Assembly (NCBI RefSeq): GCF_000429245.1 | Contig: NZ_AUBM01000011.1 | Coordinates: 62,001 to 126,000, forward strand | Source of the DNA: Schaalia georgiae DSM 6843 | GTDB lineage: Bacteria; Actinomycetota; Actinomycetes; Actinomycetales; Actinomycetaceae | Direction of reading: 5' to 3' | Length of the DNA: 64,000 bases | Shown here: positions 27,646 through 28,499 of the stretch, piece by piece | How the letters are laid out: every line of letters begins with the position of its first letter | Position numbering within the stretch: the stretch's first letter is position 1 | Program-made: the position numbers and the translations under genes | Notes under the pieces: generated by a model | What the model saw: only the letters and a program-made list of their open reading frames with translations | What the model was told of the DNA's origin: nothing | The model's database searches: none

Positions 27646-27860
27646 CCGGGTTCACACCCGGAATGCAAGCGGAGGAATCCCACCTGGATCCCCGCCCGGC
27701 ACCCCGGATGAGGGGTACCGCCGGGACACGGCCCACGGGGCCGGTGAGGGGATCGGGTTCGACGGCGGGCCCCGGCGCGCCGTCGGTAGTGGGTACCTCC
27801 GTGCGCGCAGCGTAACGGAGGTTCTTCGTTATGCGAAACAATCCGTGGAAGGAGCCACCC
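27646..27860 (+). promoter_or_regulatory. Structured leader of the infC-rpmI-rplT operon
   Basis: Several perfect inverted repeats: CCGGGT/ACCCGG (27646-27661), GATCCCC (27687-27693) with GGGGATC (27748-27754), and ACCTCCGT (27795-27802) with ACGGAGGT (27815-27822). The last stem contains an ACGGAGG ribosome binding site and is followed by TTCTTCGTT, so it could act as an SD-hiding or terminator-like element. An ATG at 27663 opens a 50-codon frame that ends at TAA 27813-27815 inside this hairpin. Such leaders commonly control this ribosomal operon. Confidence 0.55.
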
Positions 27861-28499
27861 ATCAGCGAGACTCGCATCAACGAGCGAATCCGAGTCCCCG
27901 AGGTCCGCCTCGTGGGGCCCGGCGGGGAACAGGTCGGCGTCGTCCGAGTGGAGGACGCCCTGCGCCTGGCCGAGGAGGCCGGGCTCGACCTCGTTGAGGT
28001 TGCGCCGAACGCCAAGCCGCCCGTCGCAAAACTCATGGACTACGGCAAGTACAAGTACGAAGCCGCCCAGAAGGCTCGCGATGCCCGCCGCAACCAGGCG
28101 AACACGCAGCTGAAGGAGATCCGTTTCCGACTCAAGATCGACGACCACGACTTCGCGGTCAAGAAGGGGCACGTCGAGCGCTTCCTCTCCGCCGGAGACA
28201 AGGTCAAGGTCATGATCATGTTCCGCGGACGGGAACAATCCCGTCCCGAGGCCGGGGTCCGCCTGCTGCGGCGCCTGGCCGACGAGATCGGGGATCTGGC
28301 GACCGTCGAGTCGATGCCGCGCCAGGACGGGCGCAATATGACGATGGTCCTGGCCCCCACCAAGCGCAAGGCTGAGGCCTTGAACGAGCAGCGCAAGCGC
28401 CGCGAGGCCGAGCGCGCCGAGCGCCGCGGCAAGCGGGCGGAGCGGGCCAGCAAGGACCAGGCCCGCGCCGCCTCCTTCCGCGCTGAGGACAAGGACTGA
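27861..28499 (+). CDS. infC: Translation initiation factor IF-3, probable AUC start
   Basis: IF-3 binds the 30S subunit and enforces start-codon selection. From the AUC at 27861 the protein is 212 residues and begins [17 protein letters not shown], exactly where other actinobacterial IF-3 proteins begin. N domain: [20 protein letters not shown] and [10 protein letters not shown] domain: [16 protein letters not shown] ([16 protein letters not shown]), [11 protein letters not shown]. The C-terminal extension is rich in Arg, Glu and Lys. AAGGAG lies six bases before the AUC. An in-frame ATG at 27831 would add ten residues and also has a GGAGG. Rare starts are known in infC and allow autoregulation. 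Confidence 0.92.

Follow-up and report, generated by a model that had tools for sequence, protein, structure and literature searches.

A conserved and covarying infC leader of actinobacteria as a probable transcription attenuator and its relation to the Rfam RNA Scr1601

In Schaalia georgiae DSM 6843, the infC-rpmI-rplT operon, which encodes IF-3, bL35 and bL20, is preceded by a leader that very probably functions as a transcription attenuator. The leader lies in a 64,000-nucleotide stretch of DNA, which is referred to as the window in this study. It is conserved among relatives, its helices covary and some of these helices are mutually exclusive. Apparently, it is a real and widespread attenuator of a known kind that has not been described as such, and no description of an actinobacterial infC attenuator was found in the open-access literature searched. 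Its unusual feature is a predicted helix beyond the terminator, termed helix D. According to PMC8470358, next to nothing is known about how ribosomal proteins are regulated in Actinobacteria. The features of the leader and the operon are as follows, numbered from the first base of the window.

27624-27632, + strand: putative extended -10 promoter element TGCTACCCT (TGNTANNNT); the TGNTANNNT columns were invariant in 34 of 34 distinct genus leaders.
27645-27662, + strand: P1 hairpin, 27645-27651 with 27656-27662; covariation within the genus.
27665-27675, + strand: switch strand GC-AA-GCGGAGG; serves as the 5' half of both P2 and the antiterminator.
27671-27680, + strand: P2 hairpin GGA/UCC with loop GGAA; helix 1 of alignment A1.
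27682-27758, + strand: P3 arm; ACC 27682-27684 with GGU 27756-27758, and GAUCCCC 27687-27693 with GGGGAUC 27748-27754.
27795-27830, + strand: terminator-like hairpin with U-rich tail UUCUUCGUU; covariation, called in 200 of 232 leaders.
27796-27806, + strand: 3' half of the predicted antiterminator; minimum free energy (MFE) structure of the window leader and swap test.
27810-27834, + strand: helix D, 27810-27820 with 27824-27834; 11 bp without mismatch.
27849-27854, + strand: Shine-Dalgarno (SD) sequence AAGGAG of infC; from sequence, six bases before ATC 27861.
27861-28499, + strand: infC (IF-3) with AUC start; ATC/ATT in 259 loci, TIGR00168 E 3e-64.
28539-28733, + strand: rpmI (bL35); TIGR00001.
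28760-29140, + strand: rplT (bL20, the presumed ligand); TIGR01032.

A pattern search for the core of the element, AAG-N-GG...CCCAC, gave matches in 249 of 259 infC loci, at a median distance of 195 nt upstream of the start codon. These loci comprised 35 of the genus, 80 named loci, 75 taken from 161 other family genomes with a match and 69 of the class taken from 157 genomes with a match. Certain genomes entered the set twice, so the loci partly overlap; 232 distinct leaders were obtained after 17 duplicates were removed. The strict core motif was absent from 10 of the 259 loci, two of which were truncated. A covariance model of P2-P3 (R1), whose training set did not contain the window leader, matched seven of the eight untruncated loci without the strict motif, the exception being L239. 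R1 found the core in 208 of the 210 infC loci outside its training set, and by this count nearly all sampled loci of the class carry the predicted element. The independent matches were 34/34 for the genus (35/35 loci, one of them in training), 58/59 for the family (the miss, L126, is truncated), 52/53 for the class (68/69 loci, 16 of them in training) and 64/64 for the named loci outside training, from which the truncated L104 was left out.

The R1 score of the window leader was 29.7 bits, and in its own genome R1 gave one strong match (E 8e-6), the next having an E value of 0.021. When 119 phylum-wide genomes were searched under stricter filters, all ten matches of at least 25 bits lay before infC. 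Among the best 30 loci of the 119-genome search, 12 were before infC, four of which belonged to other classes. At the search sensitivity used, few genomes of other classes have the element, and the weaker matches are mostly due to chance. One such weak match lies in the window itself (7649-7701, minus strand; 14.9 bits, E 0.0079 in the window and 0.31 in the genome) and most likely arose by chance. Of three loci of family f20, L237 and L238 have a weak core before infC, and in L239 R1 found none at E 0.05; a lineage-specific decay is possible.

The genus alignment contained 34 distinct leaders from 35 genomes, in which the invariant TGNTANNNT box precedes conserved blocks with variable stems between them. 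The transcript would start near 27638-27640. A sigma-70 consensus scan of 27400-28900 found no promoter at all and also missed the -10 element TGCTACCCT, and was therefore uninformative. The P1 hairpin that follows was paired in 94.6% of the cells of 29 distinct genus sequences, with 8 double-change cells vs 1.4 +/- 1.0 after shuffling. The window leader as a whole folded better than all 200 of its dinucleotide shuffles (z -3.84).

The switch strand downstream of P1 contains a conserved AA dimer at 27667-27668, and a conserved CCCACC (27679-27684) comes after P2. Covariation of P2 and P3 was assessed with alignment A1, whose 48 diverse sequences were taken from 72 short-P3 leaders among 116 dissimilar ones. 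Each row was required to have the core motif and a foldable P3, and the P3 ends were assigned with a length penalty. The GGA/UCC pairs of P2, of which GG and CC were search-motif letters, were formed in 48 of 48 sequences; the pair next to them was formed in 31 of 48, and four of these 31 had changed on both sides. For P2 (GGAN/N'UCC) and P3 (ACCY...RGGU) together, 85.3% of the cells were paired, a percentage biased upwards because the rows had been chosen by core motif and foldable P3. Double-change cells numbered 77 vs 34.7 +/- 4.7 after shuffling, and the covariation score was 0.310 vs 0.146 +/- 0.014, falling to 0.136 or less when the partners were slid. Changes on both sides were found for seven pairs of P3, and the number of A1 pairs with any double change (8) was not above that of the shuffles (7.4). 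P3 of the window species contains two inner stems. In addition, many leaders have GACC at their 5' end (27640-27643 in the window) and GGUC soon after P3 (from 27759 in the window), which may form a helix, P0, that closes the P1-P2-P3 junction.

The arms of the terminator-like hairpin, ACCTCCGT (27795-27802) and ACGGAGGT (27815-27822), are perfectly complementary, and an inner stem pairs 27803-27806 with 27810-27813. Among 26 distinct genus leaders, 98.9% of the hairpin cells were paired and 7 double-change cells were found vs 1.9 +/- 1.0 in shuffles; the number of pair types (5) was not above that of the shuffles (5.1). The covarying stems that the first-pass annotation had proposed to look for in relatives were found for this hairpin within the genus. 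Of the 232 distinct leaders, the automatic scan assigned a terminator-like hairpin and T-rich tail to 200 and found none in the other 32. Such a call was also given by 55 of 100 mononucleotide-shuffled leader regions, the real one scoring higher in 78 of 100. The U-tracts are short in many species, and the tail of the window, UUCUUCGUU, is weak too. A consensus terminator scan, whose rule requires a loop of 3-8 bases, missed the leader hairpin because the uninterrupted stem has a 12-base loop.

Each arm of this hairpin has an alternative partner. The switch strand (27665-27675) can pair either within P2 or with the 5' arm of the terminator, and in the predicted antiterminator CCUCCGU 27796-27802 and GC 27805-27806 pair with 27669-27675 and 27665-27666, respectively. 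Swap tests drew on the 200 leaders with a terminator call, from which sets of 107, 65 and 38 leaders of growing dissimilarity were taken; one run of this type used a looser thinning (n = 153 leaders). With the tree not modelled, the own arms of the antiterminator paired better than swapped arms, with z values of -11.2, -9.5 and -5.2, respectively. Positions -4 to -2 of the antiterminator showed five or six standard pair types. For the two bases of the AA dimer, pairing was predicted in just 50 and 26 of the 107 duplexes. In helix D, which pairs the 3' arm with sequence immediately past the U-tract, own arms likewise paired better than swapped ones; the phylum-wide z values, also with the tree not modelled, were -14.1, -11.6 and -8.7, and 92 of 107 leaders had at least six pairs. 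Within the genus, each of the 26 distinct leaders had a helix D of 7-14 pairs, mostly with at most one mismatch, each in its best register and without a control. Helix D was counted by script, as it was uncountable on the MAFFT alignment A2, where the tails are not structure-aligned; its control is the phylum swap test only.

In folding calculations at the U-tract stage, the terminator of the window leader was ahead of the antiterminator by 0.9-2.9 kcal/mol, and with P2 also enforced the terminated fold was 0.5-1.1 kcal/mol worse than the antiterminator. After read-through, the antiterminator with helix D was the energy minimum once helix D was complete. Among 65 diverse leaders, 46 were likely to form the antiterminator (mean pairing above 0.3) at the stage at which the 5' arm, but not yet the 3' arm, had been made; it outweighed the terminator in only 11 at the U-tract and 18 at the start-codon stage. 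Read-through is thus not predicted to be the default everywhere.

The helices suggest the following mechanism. The nascent RNA would form P1 and P3, after which GC-AA-GCGGAGG has two potential partners. When the switch strand is held in P2, the terminator (27795-27822) would form and transcription would stop at the U-tract; the P2/P3 domain is presumably the protein-binding form, and the terminated product would be a small RNA corresponding to Scr1601 of Streptomyces. When the switch strand instead invades the 5' arm of the terminator, the polymerase would read through, and the 3' arm would then be captured by the downstream sequence as helix D. In the window species, helix D is predicted to make the read-through fold the most stable one, and we infer that its role is to lock this fold or to mask the GGAGG on the released arm. 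The product of the last gene, bL20, would favor P2 and the terminator and thereby repress its own operon as in Bacillus, and IF-3 would add a second layer by discriminating against its own AUC start. Taken in full, as an infC-rpmI-rplT attenuator with read-through locked by helix D, bL20 as ligand and start discrimination by IF-3, this reading is regarded as probable.

Similar leaders have been catalogued under another name. No Rfam element was matched in the window and no leader match was found in 20 loci of other genera. However, Rfam family RF02830 (Scr1601) matched all five infC leaders of one genus among 14 further loci searched; this genus was taken for Streptomyces because of the Scr1601 match itself. 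RF02830 was unmatched in the window, in the nine other of the 14 loci and in the 20 loci of other genera, whereas R1 found the same core in the Scr1601-matching loci as in the window and the other genera. In all five loci, the Scr1601 match stops within the U-tract of the terminator, at a distance of 84-87 nt upstream of the start codon, and in four of the five it begins a few bases past a TAANCT-type -10 element. The statement on Streptomyces is based on these match ends, since the automatic terminator caller drew the stem of one locus, L222, wrongly. Given where its matches begin and end, Scr1601 is probably the terminated, attenuated infC leader. As reported in PMC8388888, Scr1601 is an sRNA of S. 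coelicolor whose expression was confirmed, and its S. ambofaciens homologue was found in a UTR. The likeness between Scr1601 and the element of this study thus includes the locus, the RNA and its extent to the U-tract, from just past the promoter in four of five loci; the difference is that Rfam types Scr1601 as an sRNA gene and that its model covers the Streptomyces version only.

That typing would fit a different explanation, in which Scr1601 and its homologues are trans-acting sRNAs located beside infC by chance and the hairpin is the terminator of an sRNA gene; infC might then have a promoter of its own past the hairpin. This explanation is very unlikely: the terminator arms covary with the upstream strand and with the downstream mRNA, for which a free sRNA has no need, and the ten best-scoring matches of the 119-genome search all sit before infC. 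An attenuated leader is therefore preferred. In M. tuberculosis, according to PMC3207917, the infC 5' UTR is 326 nt long and its reads exceed those of the coding region 2.6-fold in exponential and 4.9-fold in stationary phase, and Bacillus L20 is named there as an analogy for this UTR.

The Bacillus analogy also bears on the ligand. As described in PMC6097659 and PMC10931766, the same operon of Bacillus is controlled by L20 through an attenuator, and two features of L20 leaders, an AA dimer and consecutive G-C pairs, are given in PMC7247131. Since this operon is L20-controlled in Bacillus and both features recur in the core, we lean towards bL20 as the ligand of the infC leader. The AA and GG/CC were invariant in 48 of 48 A1 rows, where they were search-motif letters, and rRNA often contains features as short as these: in the 6.1-kb rRNA locus L260, AAGYGG-type strings occurred at nine sites. 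L260 belongs to a same-genus genome, which was used because the own genome yielded no 23S gene. With AAGYGG so frequent in rRNA, the preference for bL20 comes mainly from the analogy and not from rRNA mimicry. A longer string, AAGCGGAGGA (window 27667-27676), also occurs in the 23S gene of L260, which may be by chance; its site is presumably in domain I of the 23S rRNA.

The same attenuator could instead respond to another ligand on P2/P3, such as IF-3, bL35 or another ribosomal or assembly factor, which we consider rather unlikely. IF-3 and bL35 are also encoded by the operon, the L260 rRNA locus gave no clear sign that the leader mimics a 23S site for bL20, and a homology between the infA and infC 5' UTRs, claimed for M. 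tuberculosis from a 2011 alignment (PMC3207917), would indicate a wider regulator. However, IF-3 already has its start-codon autocontrol and there is no second strong R1 site in the own genome, and L20 attenuator control of the Bacillus operon (PMC6097659; PMC10931766) and the AA dimer and consecutive G-C pairs conserved in the core, as in L20 leaders (PMC7247131), argue for bL20.

Compared with the L20 leader of B. subtilis, the element shares the infC-rpmI-rplT operon, the position before infC, the mutually exclusive terminator and upstream structure and the presumed termination when a ribosomal protein of the operon binds. No AAGYGGA/UCCCACC core, P3 or helix D is mentioned in the descriptions of the B. 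subtilis leader that were consulted, and the L20_leader model had no match in the window region (E up to 5) or in 34 other loci (E up to 1). The L20 leader RNA of Bacillus is described as narrowly distributed in Firmicutes (PMC6097659). The L20 leader candidate of Deltaproteobacteria shares the AA dimer and the consecutive G-C pairs and, as described in PMC7247131, has another scaffold and belongs to another lineage. The element looks like an independent solution, in the same operon, to the problem that is solved by the L20 attenuator in Bacillus. It also gives a likely function to Scr1601, an orphan "sRNA" in Rfam, and offers a reading of the abundant mycobacterial infC leader RNA, and helix D behind the terminator yields a testable claim on how read-through gets locked. 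We tentatively propose, with slightly more doubt than confidence, a new actinobacterial attenuator family in which both terminator arms have a separate covarying partner to switch to (for the 5' arm an upstream strand with an AA dimer, for the 3' arm sequence past the U-tract), the read-through mRNA is locked in a fold that destroys the repressor site, Scr1601 and the abundant mycobacterial infC 5' UTR are terminated products and bL20 is the ligand.

The start codon of infC was also conserved. The frame from ATC 27861 matches the profiles TIGR00168 and PF05198, and the IF-3 of the window is identical to that of Pauljensenia hongkongensis HKU8. The genes of L35 and L20 come next in 75 of the 80 named loci, and the remaining five loci end too early. 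The first-pass annotation had placed the start at this AUC, six bases after AAGGAG; the spacing was confirmed in the sequence, as were the coordinates of the AUC, the hairpin, the in-frame ATG 27831 and a 50-codon upstream frame. When anchored on the IF-3 N-terminus (by the codon aligned to it or else by a codon one or two positions upstream or one position downstream), the start codon is ATC in 236 and ATT in 23 of the 259 actinobacterial loci, and under this rule ATG, GTG, TTG or CTG was found in none of the 259. All 259 loci have a lax SD-like string ahead of the start, and in 30 of 189 readable loci an in-frame stop lies at most four codons before the AUC/AUU with no usual start between. 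The AUC start is therefore taken as real, and both it and the hairpin are beyond chance, as they are conserved across relatives and the hairpin covaries. As reported in PMC5472188, infC of Streptomyces starts with ATC, through which IF-3 autoregulates, and this start is misannotated in most Streptomyces species. The start-codon control that had been proposed for the window is backed by this published case and by the AUC/AUU conservation. The rare start is thus already known in Streptomyces and is extended here by count alone; the rare AUC/AUU start and the SD-like string are also what the leader has in common with the autoregulation of IF-3 through AUU in E. coli and AUC in Streptomyces.

A second layer, a folded or translated leader, had been proposed as well. 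The fold is conserved, but it points to an exchange of terminator and antiterminator and not to a hairpin that sequesters the SD of ATG 27831. In favor of such a control, which would give an IF-3 ten residues longer, GGAGG (27817-27821) lies nine bases upstream of ATG 27831 within the hairpin. An ATG ten codons before the infC start was found in five of 189 loci, L001 (the window genome), L002 (HKU8), L031 (HKU8 again) and the unrelated L093 and L171, so that among the 35 genus loci it is limited to the window genome and HKU8 (L001 and L002). Moreover, helix D buries ATG 27831 and most of its GGAGG, and the stops close to AUC/AUU in 30 of 189 loci leave no usual start between. SD sequestration for ATG 27831 was rejected as a conserved device and is highly improbable as the explanation of the hairpin; a terminator is preferred.

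The 50-codon frame from ATG 27663 to TAA 27813-27815 ends inside the terminator hairpin, which could indicate that a leader peptide is translated and that ribosomes thereby bring about attenuation or re-initiation. Frames of at least 50 codons were found in 37.5% of 32 distinct genus leaders vs 21% of shuffled genus leaders, and with 21% of the shuffles reaching this length, 50 codons are unremarkable. The codon at the position of 27663 is ACG in 16, ATG in 8 and GTG in 8 of the 32 leaders, the frames from this position last from 1 to 75 codons, and in the nearest relative by IF-3 identity the frame stops after 27 codons. ATG 27663 is an accident of the RNA motif RYGCAAG, and RNA pairing explains the codon. 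Hence, a leader peptide is extremely improbable, and a translated 50-codon leader was rejected; the letters conserved there belong to the RNA motif of the attenuator.

Finally, one locus titled Xylanimonas cellulosilytica 352_XCEL (L032, JVKM01000056.1) has an infC locus of the genus type. Its IF-3 is 94% identical, and the 30 bases before its infC start are identical to those of several genus loci. The assembly is probably misnamed.
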